From contig NZ_WIXL01000001.1 of assembly GCF_010993955.1 (NCBI RefSeq), positions 525,235 through 589,234 of the forward strand: a DNA stretch of 64,000 nucleotides. The letters run 5' to 3'. Made by a program: the position numbers and the translations under genes. The notes beneath the pieces are model-generated. The model ran no database searches. It was given only the letters and a program-made list of their open reading frames with translations, and was not told the DNA's origin. Positions 20,501 through 44,427 of the stretch are shown piece after piece (the first letter of the stretch is position 1; every line of letters begins with the position of its first letter). The stretch comes from Oceanobacillus halotolerans. Lineage in GTDB: Bacteria; Bacillota; Bacilli; Bacillales; Amphibacillaceae.

Positions 20501-21499
20501 TTATTCTCCTTCATCCTCTATTTCCAAATCTAGATGCTGTCGTAATTCCTGTTCCACTTCAATCCGATTTTCTTCATACACATCATAATACCAAAGTCCA
20601 TCCTCATGACGCGTTCCAACTCCATCAAGGTTAACGTCCTCGACTTTAATTTCTTCATCCAATCCGTAGGCAAGAAAGCTTTTCATATGATCAAAGGTAA
20701 GGTTTGTTTTCATATTTGGCGCAATCGCATCCAATACATCCCCAAGCTTGAATACCGATGAAGCGGACGTTGCTTTTTTAGCCACAGCAGTAATAATCTC
20801 TTGCTGACGTTTCCCTCGTTCCACGTCACTATCTTGCTTTCTTGTTCTTGCAAGTGCGAGCGCTTCTTCTCCATTTAAATGCTGATAGCCGGCCTCAAGG
20901 TAAATTGCATTTTTATTATCGTCAGAGTCAGATTCACTAAAGGCATACGGAACATCAAACATAATCCCTCCTAAAGCATCGACTACTTCGACAAATGCAT
21001 TAAAATTCATACGCACATAATAATCGACAGGAACATTGAGGAAATCCTCCACCGTCTGAAGCGTCGCCTTCGTCCCACCGAAAAAATGCGCATGATTGAT
21101 CTTCGTAAAATAACCAACCTCTCTTACATACACATACGTGTCACGCGGAATACTTAGAAGTTTAATCGATCCTAAGTCCTTATTAAACGTCGCGAGAAGC
21201 AGTGCATCGGTTCGGCTTGCATTTTCATCCCGATGTTCGCTGTTATCGACACCCATGAAAAGGACAGAAACATTATCTTCCACCGGATCCACGCTCACAT
21301 CCCTTAACTCAGATGTCTCATTCTCACGGCCAACCTCTTCATGGGACTCCTCCACGATATTTTCGGTTTTATTATATATATGTGATGCATACACCCCAGC
21401 TCCAGCCACTAGTAAAAGAACAACAGCACCGATAATTAGGATCCATTTCTTTTTCCTAGATTGAGCTGGCGTTGCATTGGTATTATTGTCATTCTGCAT
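20501..21499 (-). CDS. LytR-CpsA-Psr (LCP) family wall-polymer transferase
   Basis: ATG 21499 is preferred: GAAGGGGACG lies upstream, and the frame above it gives a His/Phe-rich stretch unlike the family. The 332-residue protein has a polar N-terminus, one membrane helix (about 20-42) and an LCP domain with DNVSVLFMGVD, TDALLLATFN, SIPRDTYVYV, KINHAHFFGG, and NGEEALALARTRKQD with ERGKRQQEII. It attaches a lipid-linked polymer to the wall, most likely the teichoic acid whose precursor is made by tagD directly downstream. Its promoter region faces the first 21-bp repeat array, which begins 100 bp upstream of the start. Confidence 0.95.
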   Translation of the reverse strand: MQNDNNTNATPAQSRKKKWILIIGAVVLLLVAGAGVYASHIYNKTENIVEESHEEVGRENETSELRDVSVDPVEDNVSVLFMGVDNSEHRDENASRTDALLLATFNKDLGSIKLLSIPRDTYVYVREVGYFTKINHAHFFGGTKATLQTVEDFLNVPVDYYVRMNFNAFVEVVDALGGIMFDVPYAFSESDSDDNKNAIYLEAGYQHLNGEEALALARTRKQDSDVERGKRQQEIITAVAKKATSASSVFKLGDVLDAIAPNMKTNLTFDHMKSFLAYGLDEEIKVEDVNLDGVGTRHEDGLWYYDVYEENRIEVEQELRQHLDLEIEDEGE

Positions 21500-21599
21500 G
21501 TAAACGTCCCCTTCGTAAATACAGATTACGTACTTTATAGCGTTAACGAAAAAGTGGAAGTGTATTCGTGAGGGGAGTGCTGTTATTTGAGCGAGGCCG

Positions 21600-21913
21600 C
21601 ATGAGTTTCTCACGATGGCGCACGAGGTTTGAGCATTCTCACATGAGATTAAGGGAAAGCTGCACGAGTTTTGAGAGGTGTCGCATGAGTTTCTGGGATT
21701 GCTGCACGAGTTCTGAGAAATGCTGCATGATATTCAAGGAATGCCGCACGAGGTTTGAGAGTTTTCGCATGAGTTTCTGGGATTGTCGCACGAGATTTGA
21801 GAGTTCTCGCATGAGATTGAGGCGGTGCCGCATGAGTTTTAAGTGTGCTCGCATGAGATTTGAGGAATACGGCATGACTTCTGATCATTCTCGCATGACT
21901 TGTCAACATAGTC
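21600..21913. repeat. 21-bp repeat array 1 (15 units)
   Basis: Fifteen units each begin with GCATGAG or GCACGAG (one with ACATGAG, two ending GAC). They start at 21600, 21621, 21642, 21663, 21684, 21705, 21726, 21747, 21768, 21788, 21809, 21830, 21851, 21872 and 21893. All intervals are 21 bp except one of 20. The 14 bases after the core vary widely. The array fills most of the region between the divergent LCP and NERD genes. Arrays 2-4 carry the same core in the opposite orientation (CTCATGC). Open frames over it in several frames are a by-product of a period divisible by three. Confidence 0.92.
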
Positions 21914-22098
21914 GTACTTTACTCAAAAGATATAAAATGAACGTTTCTTAAATTTTATCCTTTATAAAATTAGCTTTTTCTATAAGGAAAACATTATTAT
22001 CCTTATTATTTCTACTAGAAACGTTTATTTTATGAATTTCATTACTTCATAAAAATGCTATATGATAAGGAAAACGTGAATGGAAAGAGGTTAATCAC

Positions 22099-23079
22099 AT
22101 GATTATTAGAAGAAGATCGAAGCCTTTGCCACTTAAAAAGTTAGATACTCGGCTACCAACTACATTCCCAAGGTATACAGAAATGGAGATTGATGCACAG
22201 AAACGAAGAAAAGGCTATGTCGGGGAACAGCAAGTGGATTATCATTTGGAACAATTCGCGGATGATTATATTATCCTACAAGATGTTAACTTGAAAGTGA
22301 ACGGGAAAAATGTACAGCTGGACAATATTATCATAACGGAATATGGAATCATACCAGTCGAAGTGAAAAATTACGATGGAACGATTACGTTTAATACTGC
22401 TCTTAATACGTTTACTCGTTCTAATGGAGAAGTGGAACAAGGCTACAAACACCCCATTACACAAGCAGAAAACCAACAAAGAAATCTTCAAACTTGGCTT
22501 CAACAATATAACCTTCAACATATTCCAGTCTATTTTTTTGTAGCAATAAGTGATCCGCGTACTGTTATTAAAGTGGTTGGTGATGAGGAGAAAATCGGCA
22601 AAATTGTTGCACATGGTGAGAATATTCCAAAGTTATTAAGAGAAAAAGTTAATGAATTGAAAAGCCACGATCTTCGCAAGTTTGATCCGAAAAAAGTTGG
22701 CCATATGATATTAAATGCCTGCGAAAATTATGATGGGGAGATAATGAAAACCTATCAAGTTCAGAAATCTGATCTGTTAACTGGTGTTCACTGTCCATCC
22801 TGTAAGCGATTGGGTATGCGGCGAATTTTTGGGAATTGGCTATGCCTTAATTGTAATCATCGTTCTAAATATGCACATCACCGCGCTTTAGATGATTATT
22901 TGTTATTAATACGTCCTTTTATAACGAACAAAGCATGCATGCGATTTTTGCATCTGGAATCCAGAGGTATCGCAACAAGAATATTGCAGCATAGCAACCT
23001 TTTGTATGATCAAAAGAGAAGAGTCTGGCGGAAGAAGCGAAGTGCACTTGTACAAGGTGGTCATGCGAGAAATGTCTGA
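22099..23079 (+). CDS. NERD-domain protein with C-terminal zinc ribbon
   Basis: The 326-residue protein has a nuclease-related domain (about 38-150): RRKGYVGEQQVDYHL, LDNIIITEYGIIPVEVKNYDG with the Asp and the Glu-x-Lys expected of a restriction-endonuclease-like fold, and NQQRNLQTWL. A zinc ribbon follows near 234-255 (CPSC then CLNC), and then a basic tail. NERD proteins in Bacillus are thought to act on nucleic acid, but their substrate is not established. The last six codons (GHARNV and stop) are encoded by the first unit of repeat array 2, so the array supplies the C-terminus. Start ATG follows AAAGAGG. Flanked by arrays on both sides. Confidence 0.85.
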   Translation: MIIRRRSKPLPLKKLDTRLPTTFPRYTEMEIDAQKRRKGYVGEQQVDYHLEQFADDYIILQDVNLKVNGKNVQLDNIIITEYGIIPVEVKNYDGTITFNTALNTFTRSNGEVEQGYKHPITQAENQQRNLQTWLQQYNLQHIPVYFFVAISDPRTVIKVVGDEEKIGKIVAHGENIPKLLREKVNELKSHDLRKFDPKKVGHMILNACENYDGEIMKTYQVQKSDLLTGVHCPSCKRLGMRRIFGNWLCLNCNHRSKYAHHRALDDYLLLIRPFITNKACMRFLHLESRGIATRILQHSNLLYDQKRRVWRKKRSALVQGGHARNV

Positions 23080-23345
23080 ACTCATGCAAGAAAGTCTGAA
23101 ACTCATGCGAGGAAATGGAAAAGTCATGCAAGGAAGCCTGCAACTCATGCGAGGAAAGGAAAAACTCATGCAAGAAAGCCTGCAACTCGTGCGAGAAAAG
23201 AAGGAACTCATGCGAGGAAATGGAAAAATCATGCAGGAAAGCCTGCAACTCGTGTGAGGAACGGAGAAAGTCATGCAAGAAAGCCTGCAACTCATGCGAG
23301 GAAAGGAGAAGATCATGCAGGAAAGCCTGCAACTCGTGCGGGCAT
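23060..23345. repeat. 21-bp repeat array 2 (13-14 units)
   Basis: Units start at 23060 and then every 21 bp without exception to 23333, each with the core (C/G/A)TC(A/G)TGC. Even and odd units alternate between a GCGAGGAAA-type and a GCAGGAAAGCCTGCAA-type interior, giving a 42-bp higher-order period. The second type forms a small perfect hairpin (TGCAGG, loop AAAG, CCTGCA). The array begins inside the end of the NERD gene and stops about 95 bp before the next gene. Repeats in both strands stay open in several frames, but no start site supports a protein. Confidence 0.92.
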
Positions 23346-23439
23346 AAGAAAAAATTATGAAGTAGTGCCTATAATTCGTGTTACAGCAACACTTCCAACT
23401 TATTAATTCCCTTCATTCCTATTAAAAAGGTGTGTTAAA

Positions 23440-24363
23440 ATGAAAGTATATGAAGAGAAAGAAACCTCGGCTTATATCAAACATGATCAGCTATTTAAAG
23501 AATTAATCCACACATTTCTCGCAGAATTTATCGAAGCATTCTTTCCAGATATATATCACCATATTGATTTTTCAGTTGTACAGCCAATGCCTGATGAAAT
23601 TTTTACTGATTTATTAGAGGGAGAAAAGCGCAGGCTAGATATTGTGGTTGAAACGAAATTAAAGGGAAACGAGGCAATGATTATCATTCACATTGAGCCA
23701 CAAAGTTATGTGCAATCAGAATTTAACAAGCGAATGTATCTCTATTTTAGCCTGTTGTATCATAAGTATCGGAAGCCTATTATACCAATTGCTGTTTTTA
23801 GTTATGATGAGAATTGGGAACAGAATCGGTATAAAATGGAATTTCCGTTTTTTCATGTGTTAACGTTTAACTTTTTAGCATTGCATTTGCGGAAAATGAA
23901 CTGGCGCAACTATATCCAATCTAACAATCCAGTTGCGGCGGCACTGTTAAGTAAGATGGGGTACACGGAAGGTGAACGGGTCCAAGTAAAGAAAGAATTC
24001 CTGCGAATGTTGGTGCGTATGAAGTTAAATCCTGCGAAAGAAAGGTTAATTTATGGATTTTTCGAGCGGTATTTAAAATTAAACGAACAGGAGGAGAATA
24101 TTCTTATGGAAGAAATCAAAAAGATGGATAATGCAGAGAAGATTATGGAATTGCCGATATCGTATGAGGAGAAAGGTATAGAGAAAGGAAAAGAAATTGG
24201 AAAAGAAATTGGAAAAGAAATTGGAAAAGCAATTGGGATAAAAAAAGTAGCAGTCGAAATGCTGAAGGAAGGATATAATATGGAAACTGTAACGAAGCTC
24301 ACAGGTTTGGATCAAAAGGAAGTTGAGGAATTGAAGAAGCGCTCTGATGAAAAGGATGGGTGA
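23440..24363 (+). CDS. Rpn-family recombination-promoting nuclease / putative transposase
   Basis: The 307-residue protein resembles the Rpn/YhgA-like PD-(D/E)xK family. It has KHDQLFKELIHTFLAEFIEAFFP near the start and a catalytic core RRLDIVVETKLKG then IIIHIEPQSYVQ, with Asp and the Glu-x-Gln pair at residues about 68-88. It also has MYLYFSLLYHKYRKPIIPIAVFSYD, and a C-terminus with tandem KEIG units (GKEIGKEIGKEIGKAIG, residues about 248-266) followed by a helix-turn-helix-like EMLKEGYNMETVTKLTGL. Rpn proteins promote RecA-independent recombination in E. coli. The KEIG stretch comes from a 12-bp DNA repeat that probably varies in copy number. The 3' end of the gene is duplicated just downstream. 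Confidence 0.85.
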   Translation: MKVYEEKETSAYIKHDQLFKELIHTFLAEFIEAFFPDIYHHIDFSVVQPMPDEIFTDLLEGEKRRLDIVVETKLKGNEAMIIIHIEPQSYVQSEFNKRMYLYFSLLYHKYRKPIIPIAVFSYDENWEQNRYKMEFPFFHVLTFNFLALHLRKMNWRNYIQSNNPVAAALLSKMGYTEGERVQVKKEFLRMLVRMKLNPAKERLIYGFFERYLKLNEQEENILMEEIKKMDNAEKIMELPISYEEKGIEKGKEIGKEIGKEIGKAIGIKKVAVEMLKEGYNMETVTKLTGLDQKEVEELKKRSDEKDG

Positions 24364-24384
24364 ATCATTTATAAGAAAATGAAT

Positions 24385-24628
24385 ATTGAACAGGAGGAGA
24401 ATGTTCTTATGGAAGAAATCAAAAAGATGGATGATGCAGAGAAGATTATGGAATTGCCGATATCGTATGAGGAGAAAGGGATAGAGAAAGGAAAAAAAAA
24501 TTGGTAAAAAAATAGGATTTAAGAAAGTAGCAGTCGAAATGCTGAAGGAAGGATATAATACGGAAACTACAGCGAAGCTCACAGGTTTGGACCAAAAGGA
24601 AGTTGAGGAGTTGAGGAAGTTGCTTTGA
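24385..24628 (+). pseudogene. Duplicated 3' fragment of the Rpn-type nuclease gene
   Basis: This segment repeats the last 260 bp of the gene at 23440 with high identity, from GAACAGGAGGAGAAT onward (source near 24083), through the EEIKKMD, ELPISYEEKG and EMLKEGYNTETTAKLTG coding parts. The KEIG block has shrunk to one unit and the reading frame is broken by a run of nine A after GGA (near 24491-24501), so translation stops at once. It has no start of its own. It reads as a tandem partial duplication that was never a full gene. Confidence 0.85.
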
Positions 24629-24755
24629 TAGACGTTTAAGTTAATTAATGGATTGGCAGGAGAAGCGTGTGCCCATGGATAAGAAGTATGCCTCGTGAGG
24701 AACTGGGAAAATACGTGGAAAAGACATTGCCAAGTCATGCAAAAGAAGGAATAAT

Positions 24756-24956
24756 TCACACAACCTCACCTGCAATATCTATAACATTATCCACCTCAAA
24801 CACCAAATAGCCCAACCTTGAATCAGAAACAAAAATCTTTTTATTTAATGACTGAGCAATTTATTCACTTCTTAAATCAGTCAAATCATAAAAATTATAT
24901 GCTTTTTCCGCTAGAGTCCGTTTAATAAATGAATAATCTACTATGTAATACTTCAT
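24756..24956 (-). pseudogene. Small gene with an in-frame stop, function unknown
   Basis: On the minus strand an ATG at 24956 opens a 66-codon frame broken only by TAA at 24861-24863: MKYYIVDYSFIKRTLAEKA.. up to the stop, then IAQSLNKKIFVSDSRLGYLV.. to TGA at 24756. Composition on both sides of the stop is protein-like. No strong ribosome binding site is visible. It is either a decayed gene or a 31-residue short protein; I do not recognise the family. Confidence 0.35.
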
Positions 24957-24986
24957 ATTGCATCAGAACTCTATAACAGGTGTCAA

Positions 24987-25174
24987 TTCATTCGGTAGCA
25001 GAGCGAATTCATGCAACGAATTGGAGAACTCGTGCAACAACCAGCATAAGTTGTGCGAGAACTATCTAAACTCGTGCAAGAAGTTGAAAAACTCGTGCGA
25101 GGGGTGCGTTAAGTCGTGCGAGAATCTGAAAACTCATGCGAAGACATCGCTAACTCATGCCAGAGAAGCGGATT
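24987..25174. repeat. 21-bp repeat array 3 (8-9 units)
   Basis: Core CTCGTGC/CTCATGC starts at 25008, 25029, 25050, 25071, 25092, 25113, 25133 and 25154, with a degenerate unit at 24987. Intervals are 21 bp, with one of 20. It lies between the pseudogenes and the end of the NlpC/P60 gene, in the same orientation as array 2. Confidence 0.88.
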
Positions 25175-25234
25175 TGAGATCACATTTTTTAAATAAAAAA
25201 GGAGGATAGAAACACCCCCCTTCAAAAAAATCAA

Positions 25235-26281
25235 TTAATAAAACCGCTTATACCCATCAAAATGCTTTTTCCAATACGAATTACTTAAGCTAGATATTTC
25301 TACACCATTTGAGCCTGCATGGATGAATTGATTATTCCCTAAATAAATCCCTAAATGGGAGATGCCGGCTTTGTATGTACCTTCAAAAAAGACAAGATCT
25401 CCGACTTGGGGGTTATTTACATAATAAGCGCGGTTGTAATATCCACCACTAGATAAGCGACCAATGCTCATGCCTGCTTTTTGGTAGGTATAGTAAATGA
25501 ATCCACTACAATCGAATCCACTAGGTGTTGAACCACCCCATACATAATCAATGCCAAGCATGTTTTTGGCTGAACTAATTAGCCTGTCCACGTTATAGCT
25601 TACGTCAGCGGATGGTTTTTCAGTTGAGCTGGATCCACTGTCCCCTTTTGCACCAATGTTAAGCTTTTGTCCGATTAAGATAAGGTCTGACTTCAGATTG
25701 TTCCATTTCCGTAAGTTTGCAACTGTTACATCATGGCGGGAAGCGATACCAGATAAGGTGTCCCCTGATTTAACAGTGTATACTTTAGCGCTTCCAACTT
25801 TTCCGTTAGATCCTGAATTACTGTTGGATTCATCTTTATTATTGTTGTTTCCTGATGAGCCTGATCCTGATTTGGATACAACAAGTTCATTTCCAGGATA
25901 GATCAAGGTTGTATCTAAGTCATTCCATTTCATTAAGTTAGATAACGATATATTATGCTTGGATGCGATGCCACTGAGGGTGTCGCCTCGCTTCACCGTA
26001 TATGTAGAGGAGTCATTGGAGCTGGATTGCTGTTTGGAATTGTTGGTGGAACTAGATTTTTTCTCAGTAATAATGACTTGATTTGGAAAAATGATGTCCC
26101 CATTTAAGTCATTTAGCTTTTTTAATTGCGACACACTTGTGTTGTACTTTTGGGCGATGGACCAAAGTGAATCGCCACTTTTGACTTTATGATCTGCTGC
26201 TTCAGCTTCATCTGTTGCCACGAAAGTTGACGCAATAAACGCACCAGCTGTAGCGGTCATGATTGCCTTTTTATTCGCCAT
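25235..26281 (-). CDS. LysM and NlpC/P60 cell wall endopeptidase
   Basis: ATG 26281 follows AAGGGGGAAA; the ORF extends to 26305 without a site. The 348-residue protein has a signal peptide ending near AEA (about 1-28) and three LysM domains (about 31-75, 92-135, 167-210, each with GDTLSGIA or GDSLWSIA) joined by Ser/Asn/Gly linkers. It ends in an NlpC/P60 domain with catalytic Cys258 (GFDCSGF), His309 (SHLGIYL) and His321 (FIHAG). It should bind peptidoglycan and cut D-gamma-Glu-mDAP bonds, like LytE or CwlS of B. subtilis. Arrays 3 and 4 flank it on both sides. Confidence 0.95.
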   Translation of the reverse strand: MANKKAIMTATAGAFIASTFVATDEAEAADHKVKSGDSLWSIAQKYNTSVSQLKKLNDLNGDIIFPNQVIITEKKSSSTNNSKQQSSSNDSSTYTVKRGDTLSGIASKHNISLSNLMKWNDLDTTLIYPGNELVVSKSGSGSSGNNNNKDESNSNSGSNGKVGSAKVYTVKSGDTLSGIASRHDVTVANLRKWNNLKSDLILIGQKLNIGAKGDSGSSSTEKPSADVSYNVDRLISSAKNMLGIDYVWGGSTPSGFDCSGFIYYTYQKAGMSIGRLSSGGYYNRAYYVNNPQVGDLVFFEGTYKAGISHLGIYLGNNQFIHAGSNGVEISSLSNSYWKKHFDGYKRFY

Positions 26282-26458
26282 TATAATTTCCCCCTTATCC
26301 GACACGTGATTACATTATGGTGAATCCCTTCCATAATCGGAAAAAATCCCCATATGGTTTTAGATTAATTATAGCACGCTATTAGTAGATTATTAGATAT
26401 TGAAGATGTTTGTAATATTTTTGTAATATTTGTCAAATTAGTGGTTGAAGTAGGGGGA

Positions 26459-26752
26459 GTCTTGCGAGAATGAGAGGAACTCATGCCGATCATATCTAAA
26501 ATCGAGTAATAGCAGATGAAAGTCGAGCAGCTGCAGGATCAAGTCATGCAGCATCATTCTAAATTCGTGCAAGAACAGGATCAAGTTATGCAACATTATT
26601 CTAAACTCGTGCAAGAACAGACTAAATTCGTGCAGACATAGGGTTAGGTCATGCAGCAACAGCCAAAACTCATGCAGTAGCGTCCCAAACTCATGCAACA
26701 ACCTCCCAAACTCGTGCGACACCACCCCAAACTCGTGCACCAACATCCCAAT
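26459..26752. repeat. 21-bp repeat array 4 (14 units)
   Basis: Fourteen units start at 26459 and every 21 bp exactly to 26732; most have CTCATGC, CTCGTGC, GTCATGC or TTCGTGC. Units at 26501 and 26522 have a mutated core (TCGAG) but keep the spacing. The array sits between the divergent promoters of the NlpC/P60 gene and mnaA. Confidence 0.92.
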
Positions 26753-26859
26753 CGCACATTTTCACCCATATCATCTATCACTTTTTTTGTTATAATTTCA
26801 GTAATCGTGTAAAATTTTATAAGAATGTATTCATGAAAATATCCACTGGAGTGAATGAA

Positions 26860-27981
26860 TTGAGTAAACGGATAAAAGTGATGACGATTTTTGGGACAAG
26901 GCCAGAAGCGATTAAGATGGCTCCACTTGTTCTGGAATTAAATAAACGATCAGATGAATTTGAGTCGATAGTGGCAGTGACCGCACAGCATAGAGAGATG
27001 CTTGATCAGGTGCTAGCTATTTTTGGTGTGTCACCTGACTTTGATTTGAACATTATGAAAAAGGGTCAGTCCCTTGCGCAAATTACAACTCGTGCGCTAG
27101 AGGGATTGGACCGGATTATGAAGGAGACGAAGCCGGATATAGTGCTGGTGCATGGTGATACGAGCACGACATTTACGGCTTCCCTTGCTGCGTTTTATAA
27201 TCAAATTGCAGTTGGTCATGTCGAGGCAGGTCTTCGTACATGGGATAAGTATTCTCCGTTTCCGGAAGAGATGAATCGCCAGCTAACAGGTGTTATGGCT
27301 GATTTGCATTTTGCACCAACAGATAAATCTAAGCAGAATTTGCTGGATGAAAATAAGGACCGTGATCGAATAGTTGTCACAGGAAATACGGCAATTGATG
27401 CGTTGAAAACAACGGTTGATGAGAGTTATACGAGTGAGATATTAGATCAGATAGGTGATAAGCGCCTTGTTTTGATGACAGCACATCGTCGGGAAAATCT
27501 AGGGAATAATATGCAGCAAATGTTCCGTGCGATTAAGCGACTTGTCGAAACCCATGATGACATTCAAGTTGTGTATCCAGTCCACTTAAATCCACTTGTT
27601 CTGCAAACAGCTGATGAAATTCTTGGTAATGATGATCGGATTAAGTTAATTGATCCATTAGGTGTGGTGGATTTTCATAACTTTGCAGCACGAGCACACT
27701 TAATTTTAACCGATTCTGGTGGAGTGCAAGAGGAAGCGCCATCCTTAGGAGTGCCAGTTCTCGTATTACGGGATACAACCGAACGCCCAGAAGGTGTGGA
27801 AGCTGGAACGTTAAAATTAGCAGGAACCGATGAGGACAATATATACCATTTAGCAAATGAACTGTTATCAAGTGATGCAGCACATGAAAAGATGGCCAAA
27901 GCCTCAAACCCATATGGTGACGGGGAAGCATCACGCCGGATTGCCGATGCGATTGTAGACTATATGAATAAGGAAAGATAA
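26860..27981 (+). CDS. mnaA: UDP-N-acetylglucosamine 2-epimerase (non-hydrolysing)
   Basis: TTG 26860 is preferred because GGAG lies eight bases upstream and gives the usual start [22 protein letters not shown] 26833 has no site. The 373-residue enzyme has family motifs [52 protein letters not shown] and [14 protein letters not shown]. It interconverts UDP-GlcNAc and UDP-ManNAc, the precursor of the ManNAc linkage unit of wall teichoic acid and of some capsules. This fits the tagD and LCP genes nearby. The ugd gene follows after 28 bp and is probably co-transcribed. Confidence 0.96.
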
Positions 27982-43874: not shown

Positions 43875-44128
43875 ATAAAAGGCAATGAACGGATCGAAGT
43901 AGTGTCTTATCTCCCTGAACAGAGAGCTGATGGTGGTGCGAATCAGTCATAGATAAGGTGCGAATTACAGTCCTGGAGCTTCTTTTTCTTCTTAAAGCTA
44001 GAGTCTTTAACAAGAAAAAGACGGTTATTTGATCGTTAACCAATTAGAGTGGTGAATCGTCTATTCACAACTAGGGTGGTACCGCGAACCAATCGTCCCT
44101 ACTGATCGTTATCAGTGGGGACTTTTTA
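43875..44128 (+). promoter_or_regulatory. T-box leader 1, tyrosine specifier
   Basis: The leader has the stem I landmarks (AGAGAGCTGATGG, GGTGCGAATCAG), a specifier region GAATTACAGTCC with codon TAC, and the T-box AGGGTGGTACCGCG near 44073. A terminator follows (GTCCCTACTGAT with ATCAGTGGGGAC, 44095-44122, then five T). The TGGT bulge would pair with the ACCA-type end of a tRNA whose discriminator is A, as in tRNA-Tyr. Uncharged tRNA-Tyr should favour readthrough into leader 2. Confidence 0.93.
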
Positions 44129-44169: not shown

Positions 44170-44427
44170 ATATCAAAAAGCAATGAACGGACCGAAGTAG
44201 CGTCTTATCTCCCTGTCCAGAGAGCTGATGGTGGTGTGAATCAGTCATAGATAAGGCACGAATTACAGTCCAGGAGCTTCTTTCTCATCATTTTTCCTGA
44301 GAAAGACGGTCGAACAGATCGTTAACTAGAATCAAGAGGTGAACGCACATTTCGTTCACAATGAGGGTGGTACCGCGATGAGAATCGTCCCTGTCGTAGA
44401 TCAATTTACGACAGGGACGATTTTTTT
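44170..44427 (+). promoter_or_regulatory. T-box leader 2, tyrosine specifier
   Basis: A second full T-box follows with the same landmarks (AGAGAGCTGATGG, GAATTACAGTCC with TAC specifier) and AGGGTGGTACCGCG near 44364. It ends in a strong terminator (44386-44399 with 44407-44420, then seven T). Leaders 1 and 2 are about 75-80% alike by eye, so the second probably arose by tandem duplication. Both must read through before aroA is transcribed. Confidence 0.93.

Follow-up and report, generated by a model that had tools for sequence, protein, structure and literature searches.

A 64,000-nucleotide stretch of the Oceanobacillus halotolerans genome (the window; C1:525235-589234 of a 3.32-Mb draft in 24 contigs, G000 below) contains four arrays of a 21-bp direct repeat, and the question raised by this locus is what these arrays are and what holds their units in step. 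An earlier note on the window had described some 50 units with the core CTC(A/G)TGC at a 21-bp step, which is right in substance, as 52 units were found. The arrays are tentatively taken here, from comparison of related genomes, to be helically phased binding tracks for a putative protein that are turned over by tandem duplication.

A fixed step and a conserved core

The unit of the window arrays reads AA(C/G)TC(A/G)TGC(A/G)... and all four arrays are intergenic (coordinates start at the first core, and the ends are uncertain by one unit). Array 1 (21585-21899, minus strand) consists of 15 units, all at steps of 21 bp, in the gap between a LytR-CpsA-Psr (LCP) family gene on the minus strand and a NERD-domain gene on the plus strand. 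Array 2 (23060-23395, plus strand) also has 15 units and lies between the NERD gene and the Rpn-like one, with a start that overlaps the stop of the former by about 20 bp; its steps are 13 of 21 bp and one of 42 bp, the last unit, which sits after the skipped one, being doubtful. The nine units of array 3 (24987-25174, plus strand; seven steps of 21 bp and one of 20 bp) are convergent with a LysM-NlpC/P60 gene. Array 4 (26459-26752, plus strand) has 13 units, with 11 steps of 21 bp and one of 42 bp, between the divergent LysM-NlpC gene and the gene at 26833-27981, and the more degenerate cores lie at its 5' end. As previously noted, two of the arrays (1 and 4) stand between divergent genes, and the degenerate units of array 4 keep step. 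Both step and core persist in array 4 with no recent copies. The two or three 20-bp steps reported before are replaced in our count by one such step and two skipped units. The 14 non-core bases, described as free, are variable, but columns 1-2 (AA), 10-11 (RR), 13 and 21 are biased. No Rfam family covers the window arrays at gathering score.

Throughout the 3.32-Mb genome the pair CTCRTGC-N14-CTCRTGC occurs 82 times against none for the reversed control, and 314 times against 26 when up to two mismatches are allowed. The G000 stretches that were read hold 23 arrays, in which 212 of 225 steps are of 21 bp. The spacing is kept in relatives, with 655 of 674 steps in 41 Lentibacillus arrays (867 of 899 for the two sets together) and 287 of 310 in further species. 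Arrays range from about 4 to 49 direct copies, and skipped slots, seen as steps of at least 40 bp, make up 5/225 steps in G000 and 8/674 in Lentibacillus. The common frame in each 21 bp is AANTCGNGCR, bases 3 and 7 of which differ between lineages and sometimes inside one genome. Called open reading frames (ORFs) of at least 150 aa overlap the arrays by more than 40 bp at 4 of 64. Single copies of CTCATGC and CTCGTGC outside the arrays are not enriched (3 and 6 found in 222 kb, where 3.3 and 6.1 are expected; 7 and 4 in a second set of 283 kb, for an expectation of 5.4 and 4.9) and show no leading-strand excess; the lack of enrichment is expected if only clustered sites count.

Within the unit it is the core that is conserved. 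Column heterozygosity in G000 is 0.11 in core columns 1, 2, 4, 8 and 9 against 0.53 in columns 13-21, and the corresponding Lentibacillus values are 0.08 and 0.42. The core is less variable than the spacer in every array (23/23 in G000 and 41/41 in Lentibacillus, 64/64 together). Near-identical pairs of G000 units (203 pairs, which are not independent) vary mainly outside the core, each of columns 1, 2, 4, 7, 8 and 9 having 4 changes on average and each of columns 13-21 having 33.

Turnover of the units is visible at a PTS gene present in G078, G082 and G079 (proteins 84-94% identical), upstream of which lie arrays of 23, 13 and 17 units, respectively; the flank downstream of these arrays is recognisably alike. 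In 3 of 6 comparisons the spacers of these arrays resemble each other slightly more than they resemble any control array, by 0.05-0.6 of 12 bases, one of the three positive comparisons having a single control and the other three comparisons being negative. A shared slot with differing units implies that the content of the array has largely been replaced, while place, frame and step remain. Elsewhere a hairpin, TTTTGCACC...GGTGCAAAA, stands directly 5' of arrays of 6-7 near-identical units in G078, G079 and G081 (L048, L053, L198, L277), and behind it the unit differs by species.

The exact three-unit CTCRTGC pattern is narrow in range. Of 159 family genomes 7 have it, as do 2 of 397 from the order, and it occurs chiefly in Lentibacillus (including L. 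salicampi, L. kapialis and L. jeotgali). The array that G093 contributes to the seven is a different, alternating one. A four-unit profile built from 32 windows (threshold E up to 1e-6) matches 38 of the 159, spread over 19 of the 46 genera in the family and including 12/12 Lentibacillus, the genomes used in its building matching by construction. In seven of these genera the units themselves were read (that of the window, Lentibacillus, and the genera of G001, G014/G092/G093, G167, G073 and G165), and the remaining 12 are assigned on profile score alone. The profile matches 8 of the 397 genomes in the order sample; two of these, G183 and G364, lie outside the family and are not counted as members of the class, since their units look different. 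Arrays of about 21 bp with other units were observed outside the family at L108 2320-2600 (Neobacillus terrae), L263 (G183) and L262 (G364). A GTDB scan with the three-unit pattern gave at least 111 stretches, 34 of which were read and the other 77 counted: 10 are Lentibacillus arrays of this class, one is a related-looking Neobacillus terrae array with units of 20-21 bp, and 23 are by their look microsatellites or other repeats. The same pattern occurs in 36 stretches of viral contigs, of which one (L174) was read and is a different repeat, and 35 were counted. As only part of the matching stretches was read, the distribution given for the class outside the family is incomplete.

Replication polarity, clustering and shared slots

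Within each stretch of 6-64 kb the strand richer in G, as judged from GC (guanine-cytosine) skew, was taken to be the leading one, which is the usual inference for Firmicutes. On this assignment the core lies on the leading strand in 60 of 64 arrays (21/23 in G000, 39/41 in Lentibacillus). Window array 1 is one of the four on the inferred lagging strand, and a degenerate G076 array at the LysM-NlpC slot, outside these counts, is a further exception. Gene direction can mimic such a polarity, and 34 of 36 arrays between co-directional genes do run in the gene direction, so that the informative cases are the convergent, divergent and antisense ones. Of arrays between convergent or divergent genes 22/24 are leading, as are both of the two that are antisense to both neighbours (four arrays that lie at the end of a stretch are left out of these gene-context counts). 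Among 38 arrays with other cores from further species, 32 are leading: 25/29 in a set in which two G093 pieces belong to one array and some stretches had fed profile building, 2/3 among arrays found by profile only (the G092 array in L292 is lagging) and 5/6 in the remainder (that of G165 is lagging).

Three Lentibacillus genomes, each having a contig of 3.6-4.0 Mb, were mapped at the scale of the chromosome (GC skew sampled at 20 points per genome, profile E up to 1e-6). Leading orientation was found in 16/17 arrays of G074, 28/30 of G075 and 20/21 of G084, 64/68 together, the skew change being placed to some 0.2-0.3 Mb only, with one G074 array in that zone and four G084 arrays common to both sets. 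In G084 the orientation of the arrays switches with the chromosome arm. The arrays are also clustered. In intervals that were picked after the data had been seen, 20 of the 30 G075 arrays fall within 226 kb (1.08-1.31 Mb) of a 3.60-Mb contig, 10 of the 17 G074 arrays within 3.16-3.33 Mb, and 14 of the 21 G084 arrays within 2.17-2.88 Mb.

Some slots are shared between genera. The LysM-NlpC/P60 gene of the window (25235-26305, minus strand), which marks one of them, has close orthologs in 13 of the 16 genomes searched. On the 3' side of the ortholog stand an array of CTCGTGC with CTTGAGC in G079, a CTCGTGC array in G084, the degenerate AACTCGCGC array of G076, an AATTCG(A/C)GC array in G093 and perhaps a CTCGATCG array in G077; a CTCGAGC array lies 0.59 kb past the 3' end in G080 and 0.67 kb past it in G085. 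No array was recognised at this slot in G081, G082, G083 or G087, or within the 0.7 kb of G078 that was read there. The slot array faces the gene in G000, G079, G080, G084 and G085, and runs in the same direction as the gene in G076 and G093. In G084 the slot falls within the array cluster described above.

Function and rival explanations

The explanation towards which we lean, short of firm confidence, is that the arrays are tracks to which a putative protein binds. Cores that are two helical turns apart face one side of the DNA, and the helical phasing proposed in the earlier note has held up, since related genomes retain the 21-bp step and the arrays are non-coding. The two-turn spacing, the conservation of the core only, and the presence of clustered sites with no enrichment of single ones suggest a protein lined up along one DNA face. 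A sequence-specific DNA-binding protein may fill the cores side by side and cooperatively, and when bound would mark or organise a portion of the chromosome with a polarity that follows replication. The arrays would turn over as units are duplicated in tandem or lost, and selection for binding would remove units with a spoiled core or phase, such that core, step, place and polarity persist and spacers do not. We infer the protein, its cooperative binding, selection rather than copying, and its role; replication polarity and clustering suggest a part in how the chromosome is replicated, laid out or segregated. A protein-coated site, one of the possibilities listed in the earlier note, survives the spacing and coding tests and is a partly supported candidate, and leading-strand polarity and clustering would fit the nucleoid or segregation role listed beside it. 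A more specific proposal, possible but doubtful, is a chromosome-organising system of Bacillus relatives in which a putative protein would assemble on helically phased AANTCGNGCR arrays that follow the direction of replication and are concentrated in one portion of the chromosome, protein and site co-evolving such that the core bases shift genome-wide by lineage and the slots stay.

Several observations weigh against binding tracks. Units were picked by their match to the core, which biases core conservation upward, yet few slots within arrays are skipped. Runs of identical units reflect recent expansion, which binding does not need, and the PTS-slot array of G078 contains many decayed cores. 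The step is looser in G073, where 4 of 8 steps are of 20 bp, and in Neobacillus terrae, which mixes lengths. At the profile threshold tested 121 of the 159 family genomes are without arrays, so that the function would be dispensable or replaced. Finally, binding does not account for a reversal of GC skew across the arrays. Over the 60 bp that precede an array the sequence is G-rich (skew of +0.43 in G000 and +0.23 in Lentibacillus), and over the 60 bp that follow it is C-rich (-0.33 and -0.22), the skew before exceeding that after in 58 of 64 arrays (22/23 and 36/41). The 3' half of the spacer is likewise more C-rich in 19/23 G000 and 28/41 Lentibacillus arrays (13/20 in an earlier Lentibacillus set). 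The reversal is absent from 32 control gaps between co-directional genes (+0.06, +0.11), and RNA folding of 22 arrays does not account for it. Deaminated overhangs at recurrent breaks were rejected as its source, since the core changes do not have the expected asymmetry.

The strongest rival, nearly as likely as binding tracks, is a self-propagating satellite, in which a fork or repair enzyme would recognise the core and duplicate units with a good core; polarity would then arise from the asymmetry of replication, and the host would gain little. Such copying would fit the runs of identical or alternating units, the differing runs at one slot in three species with the same hairpin alongside, the spacers largely replaced between orthologous slots, the replication polarity, and the keeping of the core only within arrays. 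It is harder to reconcile with slots common to several genera and with degenerate arrays such as window array 4, where step and core persist and recent copies are lacking; the NERD and Rpn proteins are not linked as a copying enzyme, and we know of no enzyme that copies a satellite of this kind. The evident tandem growth would also fit neutral minisatellites, made and shortened by slippage, of which one orientation to the fork would survive and the other be unstable. Orientation-dependent stability is established for other repeats, but slippage leaves unexplained both the core columns that are several times less variable than the spacers in 64/64 arrays and the one frame, AANTCGNGCR, found across genera, and this origin appears improbable.

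Less probable again is an element acting in RNA or at a transcription border, transcribed from the upstream gene and serving in termination or as an operon spacer. The agreement of 34/36 arrays with the direction of co-directional genes would suit it, as would a 3' part that is C-rich and G-poor in G000 and several arrays that by eye begin just past a terminator-like hairpin. However, of 34 co-directional arrays scanned for terminator-like sites only 8 have one in the 200 bp upstream, and 2 have one downstream; in convergent and divergent gaps 22/24 arrays follow replication; and it is hard to see what RNA would gain from a fixed 21-bp step. Folding of 22 arrays on both strands, with 40 shuffles each, gave no consistent structure (z below -2 in 4/22 forward and 3/22 reverse, the forward mean being near zero). 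That the arrays are the coding sequence of expressed heptad-repeat proteins, which the earlier note had considered, is scarcely credible. Twenty-one bp is seven codons, long open frames exist, and in 27 of 41 Lentibacillus arrays the most variable column class is the third position of one frame; that frame, however, is open in 21 of 63 arrays only, and the class excess, which is absent in G000 (8/23), is read as an effect of the extended-core columns 11 and 14. Core columns are conserved at all codon positions, a frame-breaking step occurs in 20/64 arrays, the best of the six frames is open in at most 39 of 63 (one array with N bases is left out of these frame counts), and none of 8 array ORFs reaches any Pfam family cut-off. 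A phage or plasmid origin found no support either: a blastn search with one G079 array of 820 bp, run with the low-complexity filter on, matched nothing in two collections.

Neighbouring genes and known systems

The LytR-CpsA-Psr family ORF (20501-21613, minus strand) is listed as beginning at a GTG within array 1, so that its true start is probably downstream. The NERD-domain gene (22099-23079, plus strand) has a clear Pfam NERD match, and the Rpn-like PD-(D/E)XK gene (23440-24363, plus strand) a weak one to PF12784 (E 2e-4, below the family cut-off). Behind the latter a decayed copy of its C-terminal part, including the GKEIGKEIG-type repeat and the end, can be made out by eye at 24373-24629. 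In the same gap, at 24690-24750, scattered degenerate units (CTCGTGAGG, GTCATGC) are perhaps the remains of a fifth array, again by eye. Further along the window a tandem pair of T-box leaders (43876-44103 and 44174-44395) scores above the Rfam gathering score in each case. The suggestion made earlier that the Rpn or NERD proteins copy the repeat is unsupported: BLAST of both window proteins against the ORFs of 35 array-bearing stretches found NERD at one other locus, in G084, and Rpn at none, so that no rule ties the arrays to these genes. In both G000 and G084 the NERD gene is flanked by arrays on both sides. Other neighbours are for the most part everyday genes of metabolism, transport and the cell wall; among the 20 that were scanned are fatty-acid, GMP-synthase, malate-synthase, flavodoxin, transport and cell-wall genes, together with one DUF.

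No description of these arrays was found among the literature matches listed. Iterons of plasmid origins are similar in being direct repeats about two helical turns apart with the protein on one face; they lie at an origin beside a rep gene, whereas the arrays here are dispersed beside unrelated genes, and no rep family was found among the 20 neighbours scanned. Chi and KOPS/SRS are likewise short, non-palindromic motifs with replication polarity. They are scattered singly; here there is no enrichment outside arrays, and a genome-wide polar motif of that type was rejected because the counts outside arrays match expectation and lack a leading-strand excess. CRISPR arrays, in which long identical repeats alternate with unique spacers beside cas genes, were rejected as well, since only about 9 core bases are common here, spacers recur, and no cas family is present among the 20 neighbours scanned. 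The ram sites bound by RacA in Bacillus subtilis offer a possible functional analogy, likened by description and not by sequence. To our knowledge, phased direct arrays and replication polarity are not features of ram sites. The likeness is that one binder has many chromosomal sites that are denser in part of the chromosome (PMC6593407).

The nearest described kind is the STAR elements of staphylococci. Like the present arrays, these are direct repeats dispersed between genes, in which the motif is conserved, the spacers are specific to the locus, and units expand and contract in number (PMC3532100). Their definition as intergenic direct repeats with locus-specific spacers also describes the present arrays. 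The STAR motif, however, is of 14 bp, T(G/A/T)TGTTG(G/T)GGCCC(C/A), and successive motifs are separated by at least 40 bp (PMC3532100); by eye it is not the same as the unit consensus AANTCGNGCR, and here 212/225 and 655/674 steps are of 21 bp. STAR loci differ between species (PMC3532100), whereas some of the slots described here are common to species and genera. The terms "orientation" and "leading strand" are absent from that STAR text (PMC3532100). Since motif, spacing and slot sharing differ, the arrays are not STAR elements, though alike in repeat dynamics. For years, no function has been attached to dispersed repeats of the STAR type (PMC3532100). The present class spans many genera while its core bases change, and follows three measurable rules, a two-turn step, replication polarity and conservation of the core only. 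These rules make function testable: the arrays can serve as bait for a protein, and the polarity rule predicts an effect of flipping an array. If a binding protein exists, the arrays would constitute a new chromosome landmark system; if none does, they would clearly exemplify a bacterial satellite coupled to replication.

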